Origin: Teretinema zuelzerae
Lineage (GTDB): Bacteria; Spirochaetota; Spirochaetia; Treponematales; Treponemataceae
Assembly: GCF_021021555.1 (NCBI RefSeq)
Contig: NZ_JAINWA010000003.1
Coordinates: 372,001 to 436,000 of the forward strand
Length of the DNA stretch: 64,000 nucleotides
Direction: 5' to 3'
A model generated the notes under the pieces. The model was not told the DNA's origin. It saw only the letters and a program-made list of their open reading frames with translations, and did not search any database. A program made the translations under genes and the position numbers. This document shows positions 15,137 through 25,811 of this stretch, piece by piece. Each line of letters begins with the position of its first letter. Positions within the stretch are counted from its first letter, which is position 1.

Positions 15137-16414
15137 CACTGCTGTCCAAGATAAATAGAACTATTTTAAAAACCCGATTTCCGTGATACAGTTTTGTTAC
15201 CACACAAACCTTTACCACAAAAGGAAATCGGGTATGAATAACTATAACACACTTTTTGGACAGCTTCTATCACAAGTTAAGAGACCTGAATTTGATAAAC
15301 TGTGCAAAACGATGGAATCAGACAAATTCCGAAAAGATTTCAATACATGGGATCAATTCGTTGTCATGGCCTTTGCGCAAATAACTAGACAAAACGGCCT
15401 GCGTAGTATTCAAAATGCAATGAATTGCCAAAAAAAATCTTTTTACCATCTCGGCCTGAACAAAGAAATAAAACGATCAACGATTTCATACGCAAATAAA
15501 AATCACGGCTCCGAGTTTTTCGAGTCCTTGTATTATCAATTATTTTCAACGCTTGAGCGCGGCGCACGTAAGTTGACGGAAAAGAAACTGTATGCCGTAG
15601 ATGCAACCACAATCGGATTTTCTCTGAATGATTTCCCATGGGCGAAATTCAGATCGACAAAAAGCGGTGTTAAGATCCATGTGAAATATGACGTTGGCGA
15701 ATCAGTTCCGGAATATTTGTTCATTACTAATGCAGAAGAGCATGAGAACAATACGCTTGGAAAAATGAATCTTAAGAAAGGCGATATTGTTACCTTTGAT
15801 AAGGGATACAATAACTACGCTCAGTTTTCTGATTTTTGTGATAACGGTGTCTATTTCGTTACCAGACTTAAAGATAATGCCTCTTACAAAGTAATTAAAC
15901 GAAGAAAAACGCATACCACAAAGATATCGAGCGACCATATCATTCAGTTTACCGGCCAGGTTGCAAAAAGCAAATGCCCAAATGAACTCAGGCGTATTCG
16001 GACCGTTGATAATGAGACTGGAAGCGCAATTATTTTACTTACGAACATGATAAGCTGCAGCGCGGAAAAGGTTGCTGAAATATACCGAAAGCGTTGGCAC
16101 ATAGAACTCTTTTTCAAAACTATTAAGCAAAACCTGAAAATAAAACGTTTTTATGGAACCTCTGAGAATGCGGTAAAAACGCAGATTTGGATTGCTATGA
16201 TCGTTTACCTTTTGTATATAATGCTCAAAAAATCGACAGGCAGTATAACGAAATGCTTCACACATTTTATTTCGGAAATCTCTGTTTCATTATTCCAACG
16301 TATTGATTTGAACCTTTGGTTTGCCGGGTCGTCGCCGCCAGTTTCTGTTCACGCTCCAGATGTCAGTTGTATGCAATTTGAGCTTTGTCTATGAAATTAT
16401 CTTGGACAGCAGTG
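15137..16414 (+). mobile_element. Intact IS4-family insertion sequence, 1278 bp
   Basis: Perfect 18-base terminal inverted repeats (CACTGCTGTCCAAGATAA at 15137-15154, and its reverse complement at 16397-16414) flank one transposase gene. Nine-base direct repeats, AAAACATTA, lie outside both ends. Everything needed for mobility is intact, so insertion was probably recent. It landed between the binding-protein gene and the ferritin promoter, breaking neither. Its codon use and base composition are more AT-rich than the surroundings. Confidence 0.93.
15234..16394 (+). CDS. IS4-family transposase
   Basis: This DDE transposase of 386 aa catalyses cut-and-paste movement of the surrounding element. 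The N-terminal domain (MNNYNTLFGQLLSQVKRPEF) resembles the DUF4372 region found in this IS4 subgroup. Catalytic residues can be placed in YAVDATTIG (first Asp), VTFDKGYNN (second Asp) and the Y-R-E-K signature YRKRWHIELFFKTIKQNL (Glu). The start is ATG 15234 with an AAAGGAAA ribosome site; an earlier in-frame ATG at 15183 lacks one. The frame is intact, with no internal stop. The stop codon lies just inside the right inverted repeat. Confidence 0.92.
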   Translation: MNNYNTLFGQLLSQVKRPEFDKLCKTMESDKFRKDFNTWDQFVVMAFAQITRQNGLRSIQNAMNCQKKSFYHLGLNKEIKRSTISYANKNHGSEFFESLYYQLFSTLERGARKLTEKKLYAVDATTIGFSLNDFPWAKFRSTKSGVKIHVKYDVGESVPEYLFITNAEEHENNTLGKMNLKKGDIVTFDKGYNNYAQFSDFCDNGVYFVTRLKDNASYKVIKRRKTHTTKISSDHIIQFTGQVAKSKCPNELRRIRTVDNETGSAIILLTNMISCSAEKVAEIYRKRWHIELFFKTIKQNLKIKRFYGTSENAVKTQIWIAMIVYLLYIMLKKSTGSITKCFTHFISEISVSLFQRIDLNLWFAGSSPPVSVHAPDVSCMQFELCL

Positions 16415-21206: not shown

Positions 21207-21254
21207 GTTATTATGTGTCATTGAACTGATTTTCAAAGAAAAGCAAGGATGAAG

Positions 21255-22226
21255 ATGAAAACAATACCCCCTGCATATGCCGATTTTTTCCAACGGTACG
21301 ATGCGTATATTCTGGCAAGCCACAAAGAACCCGACGGAGATTCGATTTCAAGCACGCTCGCGTTAGGTTCATGGCTGAACCGCATGGGAAAAAAAACGAT
21401 ACTTCTGTCCGCAGGCCCCTTTAAGAGACCCGAAATTCAAGAATATGAACCATTGTTCATTCCGAATATCAGCGCAACAGCTGTTCCGGAAAATACCGCA
21501 GTGGTAATTCTTGATTGTTCAGGAATCGAGCGCATCGGCGACGCTGCACAAGGTTTGGAGATCTTTCCTATGGCGGTGATCGACCATCACGCAACCAATG
21601 AACATTCGGGAGATCTTGCCTATGTGGACGGCTCTGTTCCCGCGACTACCGTGCTTGTTCAAAACATCATCGAAACCTTCGGAAACTCCCTGTCCAGGGA
21701 CGAAGCCGAGATGCTGTTGTTCGGTTTATGCACGGATACCGGATTTTTCCGACATCTCGACGAGCGAAGCGCTGAAACATTCGCTTTCGCGTCACGCCTT
21801 ATTGCTGCCGGAGCAAACCCGAAGAGTGTATTCGCCCATATGAACGGAGGAAAATCCTGGGGCTCGCGTATACTCATCTCCCGGATTCTCTCTCGCATGC
21901 GGCCGTATTACGACGGTAAACTGATTGTATCCTGGGAATCGAAGGAAGACACAGACGAATACGGCCTGGAAGGAAGGGATTCCGACAGCCTCTATCAGCT
22001 GATACAAAGCATCCGCGGAGTAGAAGCGATAGTCATCGTTCGACAGGAAACAGAAGACCGCTGCTCCGTGGGATTCAGATCGCTGAATAAAATCGATGTA
22101 AGCATAGTCGCAGCGTCCTTCGGCGGAGGAGGACACCGCCAGGCGTCGGGACTCAGCATCGAAGGAAAAATCGAAGACCTCATCCCCCGCTTCATCGAAG
22201 CATTCAAACCGCAATTCCAAAACTGA
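21255..22226 (+). CDS. nrnA: DHH-family phosphoesterase, NrnA-like
   Basis: This 323-aa protein of the DHH-DHHA1 family contains HKEPDGDSISS, VILDCSG, IDHHATNEHSG (the DHH motif), FGLCTDTGFFRH and the C-terminal GGGGHRQASG. NrnA enzymes degrade very short RNAs and dephosphorylate pAp; relatives hydrolyse linear products of cyclic di-AMP or di-GMP. This is notable because the window also encodes CdaA and two HD-GYP proteins. The start chosen is ATG 21255, five bases after AAGGA; ATG 21249 overlaps that site. Confidence 0.88.
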   Translation: MKTIPPAYADFFQRYDAYILASHKEPDGDSISSTLALGSWLNRMGKKTILLSAGPFKRPEIQEYEPLFIPNISATAVPENTAVVILDCSGIERIGDAAQGLEIFPMAVIDHHATNEHSGDLAYVDGSVPATTVLVQNIIETFGNSLSRDEAEMLLFGLCTDTGFFRHLDERSAETFAFASRLIAAGANPKSVFAHMNGGKSWGSRILISRILSRMRPYYDGKLIVSWESKEDTDEYGLEGRDSDSLYQLIQSIRGVEAIVIVRQETEDRCSVGFRSLNKIDVSIVAASFGGGGHRQASGLSIEGKIEDLIPRFIEAFKPQFQN

Positions 22227-22429
22227 CAGAGGCTGTTCAACCGGTTGAATGTTTTTTTAAGACCGTTTATCCTGTTATTCATTCAACCGTTCATCCTCCC
22301 ATACACTGTTTTACCTCAAAAAAAATTCGGCAATTACTCTTTATATTATAAAGATTTCCAACCTCTTTCCCGCAGCTGATCACCAAAATATTTTTCACTT
22401 TCTGCCGTATCGCATTTTCACTATTCGCC

Positions 22430-22445
22430 TGGCATGATTTCTGCT
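22430..22445 (+). promoter_or_regulatory. Sigma-54-type promoter
   Basis: TGGCATGATTTCTGCT matches the -24/-12 consensus TGGCAC-N5-TTGCW with GG and GC exactly ten bases apart; two consensus positions differ. No sigma-70 hexamers with good spacing are seen between it and the gene. Its expected start lies about 85 bases before the coding region, leaving room for two leader hairpins. Confidence 0.62.
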
Positions 22446-22461
22446 TACAAGATAACGACGA

Positions 22462-22515
22462 AATCTGTAAAACAGATTGGTTTTTTAACCGACGGCTCGC
22501 ATTTTAATGAGCCGT
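22462..22515 (+). promoter_or_regulatory. Two leader hairpins before the sigma-like gene
   Basis: The first, AATCTGT-AAA-ACAGATT (22462-22478), is followed by GG and six Ts and looks like a weak intrinsic terminator. The second, ACGGCTC-N10-GAGCCGT (22492-22515), ends 16 bases before the TAAGGAGG ribosome site. Attenuation is possible but unproven. Confidence 0.5.
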
Positions 22516-22540
22516 TTCGCGTAATGTAAGGAGGAATACA

Positions 22541-23422
22541 ATGACGGCAGACGATTTAGAAAGGCACTTGCAGAATACGAGAGAGAACAGTTGCGAACAA
22601 TCTAAACAACAGGCCGCAGACGCGGCTGCGGTGTATGTGTATGAAAGGCTTTCCTACTTTGTAAGCTCTAATCGGGACGAAGACGAGGGCGGCGATTTTT
22701 TTCTCTGGCTCTATCCGCGAATCAAGAGGCTCATTCTCTCCTTTAATCCTTCTAAAGCTTCGCTGTCGACATATATGACCAAGTATGTTCAGTTCTATTA
22801 CCGATCGTTTCTGCGGATCAGATGCGCTCAGGCGGCTCACCGAAACGCTTTGGAACAGGAAGAATGCGTTCGTGTGTTATCGGAAACCGATGAATCCCAT
22901 GATGCATCGTCGGCTTTGGAGTTTCTGCGCGATCCGGAGGAAACATACGGCGGGAAGCTGGATCTATCGACCAGGGAAGGGCAAATATACGCGAGAAAAA
23001 TACTTCTGCTCGCCTGCAAATCAAGCCTGTTCATCGATGACCAGGCAATACGCAAAGTTGCGTATCTTACAGGCTGCGATGAAGCATGGCTAATGGAAAA
23101 ATGCGACGCGCTGAGGAGGCACTGCAAAGAAAAGGAAGAACGATTCAAAATAGAACGCGAGCGGATGAACGGTTATTACATCCGGGCCCGCAGGTGCGAA
23201 CTGGAATTGCGCAGCCTTGACCGTTCCTCCGGACGCTTTGCACAATTGGAAAAAGAACGCAGTTATTGCTTGCTGCAATGGAAAAGACTCGAATCGGAAC
23301 AGTCCAGGCACATCAGAGCTCCCAGTAATCGATGCCTCGCGGCGACCCTTGGAATCAGCAGGGGAACGATAGATTCGACGCTTGCATATACAAATAAACA
23401 TGCGTATTCTGGTGCGATATGA
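22541..23422 (+). CDS. Sigma-factor-like protein of unknown function
   Basis: This 293-aa protein has two regions that recall sigma-70 factors. Residues 46-95 (GGDFFLWLYPRIKRLILSFNPSKASLSTYMTKYVQFYYR) resemble region 2, where a core-binding helix is followed by a start of the type F(D)P...FSTY. Residues about 262-285 (SNRCLAATLGISRGTIDSTL) resemble a region 4-type helix-turn-helix. The centre is a charged coiled coil. Clear conserved promoter-contact residues are not seen, so DNA-directed sigma activity is a hypothesis. A strong TAAGGAGG precedes ATG 22541. It overlaps rdgB by ATGA, and its promoter is sigma-54-like. Confidence 0.6.
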   Translation: MTADDLERHLQNTRENSCEQSKQQAADAAAVYVYERLSYFVSSNRDEDEGGDFFLWLYPRIKRLILSFNPSKASLSTYMTKYVQFYYRSFLRIRCAQAAHRNALEQEECVRVLSETDESHDASSALEFLRDPEETYGGKLDLSTREGQIYARKILLLACKSSLFIDDQAIRKVAYLTGCDEAWLMEKCDALRRHCKEKEERFKIERERMNGYYIRARRCELELRSLDRSSGRFAQLEKERSYCLLQWKRLESEQSRHIRAPSNRCLAATLGISRGTIDSTLAYTNKHAYSGAI

Positions 23423-24000
23423 AGATCTATTTTGCATCGGGAAACGCCCATAAAAGGGAAGAACTTTCCAGAATACTTGCGCCCCACTCAATCGTTATTC
23501 CGCCCGACGAAGGAATTGCTTTCGACCCCGAAGAAACCGCGGCAGACTTTTTCGGAAACGCGCTGATAAAAGCGAAAGCCCTGTTCGACCTGGTCGGCAA
23601 ACCGGTATTGGCCGACGATTCCGGAATTTGCGTCGACGCTCTCGGCGGAGCCCCCGGTGTGTTATCGGCAAGATACGGTTCGGACAATGGAATAAAGCTC
23701 ACCGATTACGAACGAAACCAGCTGCTGCTTTCGAATATGAAAGGAATCAAGGAGAGAAGCTGCAGATTCGTCTGCAATATGATTCTCTACCTTGGAAAAG
23801 ACCGCTTCTATTCGGTACAGGAAACTCTCGAAGGCACGCTTATCGATGAACTCAGGGGATCGGGAGGATTCGGCTACGACCCGCTTGTGCTGGTCGAGGA
23901 ACGCGGACTTACGGTAGCTGAATTGCCGGCGGGTGAAAAAGATGCAGTGTCCCACCGGGGAAAGGCCGCGAGACGTATTCTACAATTACTGGATGAGTAA
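23419..24000 (+). CDS. rdgB: Non-canonical purine NTP pyrophosphatase
   Basis: This Ham1/RdgB house-cleaning enzyme hydrolyses dITP, dXTP and ITP to monophosphates so that they are not built into nucleic acid. The N-terminal substrate loop IYFASGNAHKREEL, the catalytic VLADDSGICVDALGGAPGVLSARYG and the C-terminal SHRGKAARRIL are all present. Its 193 aa is the usual size. It is translationally coupled (ATGA) to the sigma-like gene. It ends 46 bases before the convergent methyltransferase stop. Confidence 0.94.
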   Translation: MKIYFASGNAHKREELSRILAPHSIVIPPDEGIAFDPEETAADFFGNALIKAKALFDLVGKPVLADDSGICVDALGGAPGVLSARYGSDNGIKLTDYERNQLLLSNMKGIKERSCRFVCNMILYLGKDRFYSVQETLEGTLIDELRGSGGFGYDPLVLVEERGLTVAELPAGEKDAVSHRGKAARRILQLLDE

Positions 24001-24010
24001 TCGAATCCAA

Positions 24011-24058
24011 GCCTCCTCCGAGAGAATAAAAAGGATGGAGGAGGCCTTATCCTTTTTT
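24011..24058. terminator. Convergent terminator region between rdgB and a methyltransferase
   Basis: AAAAAGGAT (24028-24036) pairs with ATCCTTTTT (24049-24057), giving T runs on both strands. A competing 9-base stem, GCCTCCTCC (24011-24019) with GGAGGAGGC (24037-24045), uses bases of the first loop, so the two structures exclude each other. Confidence 0.65.
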
Positions 24059-24712
24059 CTGAAATACATATTCGAATTGACCGATCTTTCCCCGAAAAAC
24101 GAGGTCTGCGGATGCTCCGACAATCTCAAGGGATTTTTCAGAATAAAATGAAACATGAGTAATGTCGCTCCTGTACCACCATTTCTCGAAATCGCATGAC
24201 ATCGATTCAGCAGGATGCGTTCCTACGACGAGATAGCCCGATGGCAGAAGAAAATCTGCCATGCGCCGAAATTCGTCTCTCGGCGACAAAAAGTGCTCCG
24301 CAACTTCCAGGCAAACTATCGTTTCGAAACGGACAGCCGCGTCGGGAAGAACAGGCTGATAATGCAAATCATACGGATACGCCTCGAATCCCTGCTCCTG
24401 CAAGAGTGTCGTCAAGGAAGGAACGGGGCCGCTTCCCCAATCGAGAATAGAAGCAGGCCTAGAACGAAGCCCTGCGTCCGTACGAAAAAAATCTAGAAAC
24501 GTGTCGATGAAATTCTGCAAGTAATTTCTGTACCCCGGATCGGAGAGCTCATTATTATGATGCTCATACCGTTCGCGGGACTTCTGCGATGAAGGAAAAT
24601 AGCGAGAAAATAAAAAAAATCCTCCGCAAACTTCGCAATTGCCGTATACTAGAGAGGAGCATTCTATTTTCCTGATTCGCTGAGAAAGGCAAAAGGGACA
24701 ATCAGTTTTCAT
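24047..24712 (-). CDS. Class I SAM-dependent methyltransferase with N-terminal zinc ribbon
   Basis: This 221-aa protein starts with two Cys-X2-Cys pairs (CPFC at residues 5-8 and CEVC later), a probable zinc ribbon. A methyltransferase domain follows, whose SAM motif is ILDWGSGPVPSL, with the post-motif FETIVCLEVAEHF. The order zinc ribbon then methyltransferase is found in enzymes that modify small molecules or sugars; no substrate can be named. No Shine-Dalgarno sequence is seen before ATG 24712. Transcription starts in the region divergent from the first flagellin gene. Confidence 0.8.
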   Translation of the reverse strand: MKTDCPFCLSQRIRKIECSSLVYGNCEVCGGFFLFSRYFPSSQKSRERYEHHNNELSDPGYRNYLQNFIDTFLDFFRTDAGLRSRPASILDWGSGPVPSLTTLLQEQGFEAYPYDLHYQPVLPDAAVRFETIVCLEVAEHFLSPRDEFRRMADFLLPSGYLVVGTHPAESMSCDFEKWWYRSDITHVSFYSEKSLEIVGASADLVFRGKIGQFEYVFQKKG

Positions 24713-24733
24713 TAAAAAAAATAAAAAAAAGTT

Positions 24734-24760
24734 TAAGCTTCAGGCAGAAGCTGCCGACAT
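24734..24760 (+). promoter_or_regulatory. Sigma-28-type promoter of the first flagellin
   Basis: TAAG (24734-24737), 15 bases and GCCGACAT (24753-24760) match the flagellar consensus TAAA-N15-GCCGATAA at nine of twelve positions. The leader to ATG 24951 would be about 180 bases. Confidence 0.65.
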
Positions 24761-24902
24761 ACATAAGGTAAAGGTGTCTGTTTAAGCGTTTACCCCTAGC
24801 AAGGTTACGTAAAAACAGATTTCTTTGCAAGTCCTGATTGAAGGCGTCCGACAGAGGCAGTGTCCGATGGATGTTGCGCGGGAGGGTGCCTGAAATGAGG
24901 CC

Positions 24903-24944
24903 GGGAAGCAAGGATGCATCCCGAAAAGACTATTCCATGGAGGA
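24903..24944 (+). promoter_or_regulatory. Probable CsrA target in the first flagellin leader
   Basis: GGGAAGCAAGGATGCATCCC (24903-24922) folds into a short imperfect hairpin with AAGGAT in the loop; CAAGGATG matches the CsrA SELEX core. A second GGA lies in the ribosome site ATGGAGGA (24937-24944), 27 bases downstream. The two-site arrangement resembles the Bacillus hag leader. Confidence 0.62.
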
Positions 24945-24950
24945 ATAACT

Positions 24951-25811
24951 ATGGTTATCAACCACAATCTCTCTGCAATGTTCGCACAGCGAACTCTCGG
25001 CGTCACCAATGGTGCCATCGGCAACGACATTTCCAAACTGTCGAGCGGTATGCGCATCAACAAAGCAGGCGACGATGCTTCCGGTCTTGCCGTTTCCGAA
25101 AAAATGCGCAGCCAGATTCGAGGCCTCAACCAGGCTTCGCAGAACGCGGCGAACGGAATCAGCTTCATCCAGGCTACCGAGGGTTACTTGCAGGAAACTT
25201 CCGACATTCTCCAGCGCATCCGCGAACTCGCGGTACAGTCTTCGAACGGAATCTATTCATCCGAAGACCGCATGCAGATCCAGGTTGAAGTTTCTCAGCT
25301 CGTGGCGGAAGTGGACAGAATTGCGAGCGCCGCTCAGTTCAACGGCATGAACATGCTCACCGGCCGTTTCGCGCGGGAAACCGGCGAAAACACCATCACC
25401 GGATCCATGTGGTTCCACATCGGCGCCAACATGGACCAGCGAGTGCGCGTGTACATCGGTACGATGACCGCTACCGCTCTGGGAGTACGCAATGTGGGAG
25501 ATGGTTCGATCATGACTCTTGAGAATGCTGATTCTGCTAACCGCAGCATCGGAACTATCGATGAAGCTCTGAAGACCATCAACAAGCAGCGCGCGGACTT
25601 GGGCGCATATCAAAACCGGTTGACCCACACGATCTCCGGCTTGAATATCGCTGCCGAAAACATGACCGCCGCCGAATCACGCATCCGCGATACCGACATG
25701 GCGTCTGCGATGGTCGAGTACACCAAGAATCAGGTGCTCTCGCAGTCTGGAACAGCGATGCTTGCGCAGGCTAACAGCAACAGCCAGCAAGTATTGTCTC
25801 TTCTGAGATAA
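24951..25811 (+). CDS. flaB: Flagellar core filament protein FlaB, first copy
   Basis: This is a core flagellin of the periplasmic flagellum. At 286 aa it has only the conserved N-terminal ([17 protein letters not shown]...[30 protein letters not shown]) and C-terminal ([36 protein letters not shown]) coiled-coil domains and a short centre, typical of spirochaetal FlaB, which lacks D2/D3 domains. The GGAGG site is seven bases before the ATG. Expression probably uses sigma-28 transcription and CsrA translational control. About 60-65% of residues appear shared with the second copy. Confidence 0.95.

Follow-up and report, generated by a model that had tools for sequence, protein, structure and literature searches.

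A divergent sigma-70-family gene preceded by a conserved sigma-54 promoter box in Teretinema zuelzerae and other Spirochaetia

The analysed stretch of DNA (hereafter the window) is a 64-kb segment of contig C3 in the 3.62 Mb genome of Teretinema zuelzerae (G000), and the gene considered here encodes a divergent protein of the sigma-70 family, referred to below as the sigma-like protein. The features of the locus are given in Table 1. The stop codon of the sigma-like gene overlaps the start codon of rdgB in the sequence ATGA (23419-23422), and the two genes are probably carried on the same transcript. Among 104 homologous loci, rdgB was found directly downstream of the sigma-like gene in 83, and a DHH phosphoesterase gene was found upstream, on the same strand and within 2 kb, in 70. 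The coupling to rdgB proposed in an initial annotation of this DNA is supported by both the overlap and the neighbourhood. The order DHH phosphoesterase gene, sigma-like gene, rdgB is conserved, and is followed in much of the Treponemataceae by flaB, flaB, flaG and fliD. Elsewhere in the window, positions 15183-16394 hold a complete-looking transposase ORF that appears IS4-like by eye.

Table 1. Coordinates of the features at the sigma-like locus (window positions)
Feature	Position	Strand	Evidence
DHH/DHHA1 phosphoesterase gene, conserved upstream neighbour	21249..22226	+	PF01368 and PF02272
Sigma-54 promoter box TGGCATGATTTCTGCT	22430..22445	+	Exact pattern match; position and sequence conserved in 79/104 loci
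Leader of about 85 nt with two hairpins	22456..22540	+	RNAfold z -2.67
Ribosome-binding sequence AAGGAGG	22528..22534	+	Sequence
Divergent sigma-70-family protein ORF, 293 aa	22541..23422	+	TIGR02937, Pfam r2/r4 and hhalign at family level; AlphaFold2 pLDDT 91
Region-2-like domain, residues about 1-100	22541..22840	+	VIA-align to sigmaE 1or7; hhalign
Middle part: HTH-like helices (about 145-190) and long helical hairpin (181-255)	22952..23305	+	AlphaFold2
Region-4-type helix-turn-helix, residues 261-289	23321..23407	+	hhalign; conservation; consensus PSNxxIAxVLGIPKGTVDSxL
rdgB (Ham1/ITPase)	23419..24000	+	PF01725, E 2.8e-53

The promoter box carries its -24 GG at 22431-22432 and its -12 GC at 22443-22444, which gives a predicted transcription start, derived from the sequence, at about 22456. 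The box therefore has the exact GG-N10-GC spacing that the initial annotation had stated, together with the TGGCAY...TTGCW consensus of sigma-54 promoters. In homologous loci, a box was called when, no more than 150 nt upstream of the homologue, a GG-N10-GC site agreed with the consensus at 9 or more of 12 positions. Such a box (TGGCAYR-N4-YTGCW) precedes the homologues in 79 of 104 loci. The corresponding control counts are 3/104 for the reverse strand, 1-3/104 for shuffled sequences and 100/2080 for random windows of the same loci. This conservation is partly circular, since GG and GC were required by the definition, so that the evidence lies solely in the remaining positions and in the controls. 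The sequence logo of the boxes is that of a standard sigma-54 promoter, with flanks that lack conservation. Two copies of the pattern TGGCAYN5YTGCW were counted in the 64-kb window, where 0.09 would be expected, and 16 in the whole 3.6-Mb genome, for which the reversed control pattern gave 10. A good part of the 16 genomic sites may consequently be due to chance, and the promoter argument rests on conservation and not on a single match.

The box is unevenly kept. A degenerate version, TTGCAC-N5-TTGCT, occupies the same place in T. denticola-type genomes; several loci lacking a strict box carry a degenerate one at this place, and others have none. No recognisable box was found in some lineages (most of family f5, f15 and others), nor upstream of the homologues from outside the class. 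RpoN was detected in 56 of 59 related genomes and in all 40 genomes of a class sample, and T. zuelzerae itself encodes RpoN together with seven clear (strong) enhancer-binding proteins. In this genome, the genes that have a sigma-54 box of this kind in front of them include nifH, hsp20, a NifX-like gene, the sigma-like gene and two ordinary sigma-70 genes. The boxed nifH-type gene (C3:734551, locus L202) suggests nitrogen fixation in T. zuelzerae.

The leader between the predicted start and the coding sequence folds better than its shuffled versions, although the first of its two hairpins is a weak A/T-rich stem. The initial annotation had read the leader as holding a terminator-like hairpin and possibly an anti-termination switch, of which only the presence of two folded hairpins stood. 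A terminator scan reported none on the + strand, and an Rfam search of positions 22200-25000 returned no match. The distance from box to start codon in relatives is 27-105 nt, with a median of about 50, so that most of their leaders are much shorter and mostly leave no room for two hairpins, and the two-hairpin leader is apparently specific to this species. Given the missing terminator and the short leaders of relatives, control of the sigma-like gene by a leader switch is not supported and is regarded as highly improbable, even though two hairpins do fold there.

The sigma-like protein used as query matched 48 of 59 related genomes, almost always in single copy. In the larger genome collection, a first search with the single protein returned no relatives, while a profile built from close genera succeeded; a profile of all 41 homologues was too divergent as a seed for the collection search. 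With the 41-sequence profile, 199 of the 248 Spirochaetia genomes sampled contained the family, as a rule in single copy, many of the matches in family f12 being weak. Named records among the matches include Treponema vincentii and Brucepastera parasyntrophica. The class-wide profile search found no member in Borreliaceae-type genomes (f22), and the gene is also absent from a genome of 1.1 Mb (G030, T. pallidum-sized) that has kept RpoN and flagellin. A gene remnant was sought beside rdgB in the genomes lacking the sigma-like gene, including G030, and none was found. A literature search among openly accessible papers retrieved nothing on the protein.

The place of the gene next to rdgB-flaB-flaB-flaG-fliD in much of the Treponemataceae raises the question of whether it regulates the neighbouring flaB genes. 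Its distribution argues against such a flagellar regulator: the gene persists in genomes without flagellin (for example G065, G146, G214, G068, G091 and G073), three flagellin-less genomes of family f12 also keep a full or weaker sigma-54 box, and flagellated genomes without the gene exist, such as G030. For this reason adjacency to flaB is no proof of a flagellar role. Moreover, in other families the gene lies away from flaB, and flaB has, by eye, a sigma-28-like promoter of its own. A strict flagellar link was rejected in a co-occurrence test, gene and flagellin each occurring without the other, and a role as regulator of the neighbouring flaB genes is considered quite improbable. The sigma-28-like promoter upstream of flaB reads TAAG-N15-GCCGACAT (window 24734-24760) and would leave a leader of about 190 nt.

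Homology to sigma factors was examined with curated models and by profile-profile alignment. In single-sequence scans the window copy matched no curated model. TIGR02937 was matched weakly by 45 of 70 family members, below its cut-off of 42.9 bits in the class members tested, and the Pfam region 2 model by 7 of 70 (best E 2.3e-5). Scans with sigma models were therefore positive for the family and negative for the window copy taken alone. As the curated NCBIfam and Pfam models remain below their cut-offs on the members tested, class members are likely annotated as hypothetical proteins. Full-length homologues from elsewhere in the phylum, beyond the class, reach 89-115 bits with TIGR02937 and align to the class profile from position 3 to 288 or from 8 to 280, which ties the family to recognised sigma factors. 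With hhalign, the family aligned to ECF region 4 (Prob 95, E 3.5e-8) and to ECF region 2 (Prob 58, E 1e-4), the two regions being collinear in the profile-profile alignment. Sigma region 2.3 is matched by the segment FNPSKASLSTYM of the window protein; the family consensus of the C-terminal helix-turn-helix is IAxVLGIPKGTVDSxL. Resemblance to sigma region 2 and to a region-4-type helix-turn-helix at the end of the protein, as claimed initially, was accordingly confirmed.

AlphaFold2 modelled the whole protein with a pLDDT of 91 and residues 138-293 with a pLDDT of 96; the model runs from region 2 through an HTH-like segment and a long helical hairpin to the region-4-type HTH. None of the structural matches was strong by itself. 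Residues 2-97 overlay region 2 of sigmaE (1or7) over 90 residues at 3.1 A in VIA-align, with a Z of 7.7 that for a helical protein is supportive only, such values being reachable by chance. Foldseek returned no match at E <= 0.001 for either the full model or its C-terminal part, the C-terminal matches being mostly unrelated coiled coils.

A rival reading is a sigma-54-dependent DNA-binding regulator of sigma descent, which would have kept its HTHs, would dimerise through the hairpin and would not bind core polymerase. In ordinary sigma factors the Q-E residues of region 2.2 contact beta-prime; in the alignment of region 2.2 the D-F positions of the family align but the canonical Q-E positions are not conserved, which is consistent with such a regulator, as are the second HTH-like segment, the long hairpin and the fact that the curated sigma model puts all tested class members below its cut-off. 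However, few parts of the protein are as well conserved as the region-2 motif F-x-x-Y-L (F75 90%, Y78 85%), as expected if -10 recognition has been kept, and the homologues found beyond the class, which share this architecture, clearly belong to the sigma-70 family. A regulator of this kind is thus judged unlikely, and a divergent alternative sigma factor is preferred.

Membership in known groups was then considered. Region 2 homology, detected at family level, and the C-terminal region 4 helix-turn-helix place the protein in the sigma-70 family. Its motifs of regions 2 and 4 follow each other as they do in TIGR02937/ECF sigma factors, but ECF factors have only a short linker between the two regions, whereas this family has about 100-130 extra helical residues, including the hairpin, and its class members score below threshold. 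No anti-sigma gene of the kind that accompanies ECF factors was recognised next to it, the conserved neighbours being the DHH phosphoesterase gene and rdgB. The hairpin insert is also lacking in HrpL.

Two characterised systems offer the closest parallels. In Borrelia burgdorferi, sigma-54 directly transcribes a sigma-70-family gene in the RpoN-RpoS pathway (PMC3037356), and the same relation in a spirochete is what we infer here from sequence; the Teretinema protein differs in that it is not RpoS, is missing from Borreliaceae-type genomes, is encoded next to rdgB and carries a long helical insertion. In Pseudomonas syringae, HrpR/S and sigma-54 control the ECF sigma factor HrpL (PMC8657755), likewise a small sigma-70-family factor whose gene depends on sigma-54 and enhancer-binding proteins, but in other organisms and with no sequence relation to HrpL shown here. 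The best reading is that the Teretinema protein would function like these two systems while being a member of neither.

An RpoS-like sigma gene of T. zuelzerae (C3:833881-834705, locus L213) is about 41% identical to its best Borreliaceae-type match, and a sigma-54 box lies just upstream of it and its class homologues in 29 of 30 cases (L213 and L242-L270), these 30 being the best-scoring matches and not a random draw. The RpoN-RpoS link of Borrelia may thus be a class-wide arrangement. A second ordinary RpoD/RpoS-like sigma gene (C3:946367-946564, minus strand, L211) carries a sigma-54 box at -55, and boxed sigma genes similar to it were observed in relatives (L222, L224-L227).

Taken together, the sigma-like protein is likely an alternative sigma factor, a divergent one within the sigma-70 family, whose gene is transcribed together with rdgB by sigma-54 (RpoN) polymerase. 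The promoter and the sigma ancestry are well supported; activity as a sigma factor, the activator and the targets are inferred. A sigma cascade had been suggested in the initial annotation, whose interpretation as a whole is supported in part: the cascade has good comparative support from the class-wide sigma-54 box, the sigma-70-family homology, the presence of RpoN and the likewise boxed second sigma gene. It appears that one sigma factor switches on another, in a cascade that is largely unstudied. An NtrC-type activator would respond to a signal and open the sigma-54 promoter, from which RpoN polymerase would transcribe the sigma-like gene and rdgB. The region-2-like domain of the product would bind core RNA polymerase, region 2 and the C-terminal HTH would read a private -10/-35 pair, and the helical hairpin would be a lineage-specific insert. 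The protein would then add a second arm, next to that of the RpoS-like factor, to a cascade headed by sigma-54 and of long standing in the Spirochaetia. More tentatively, and with the odds rather against it, the family may form a new group within the sigma-70 proteins, in which regions 2 and 4 are separated by a coiled-coil insert (perhaps a built-in sensor or dimerisation module). Together with the RpoS-like factor it would make up a two-armed, sigma-54-headed cascade that the ancestor of the Spirochaetia already possessed and that is devoted to non-flagellar regulation.

The role of sigma-54 in spirochetes outside Borrelia is little known. A boxed sigma-like gene conserved across the class, oral treponemes included, provides a direct handle on the sigma-54 regulon, and suggests that the RpoN-RpoS pathway of Borrelia is a variant of an arrangement that is older and extends through the class.
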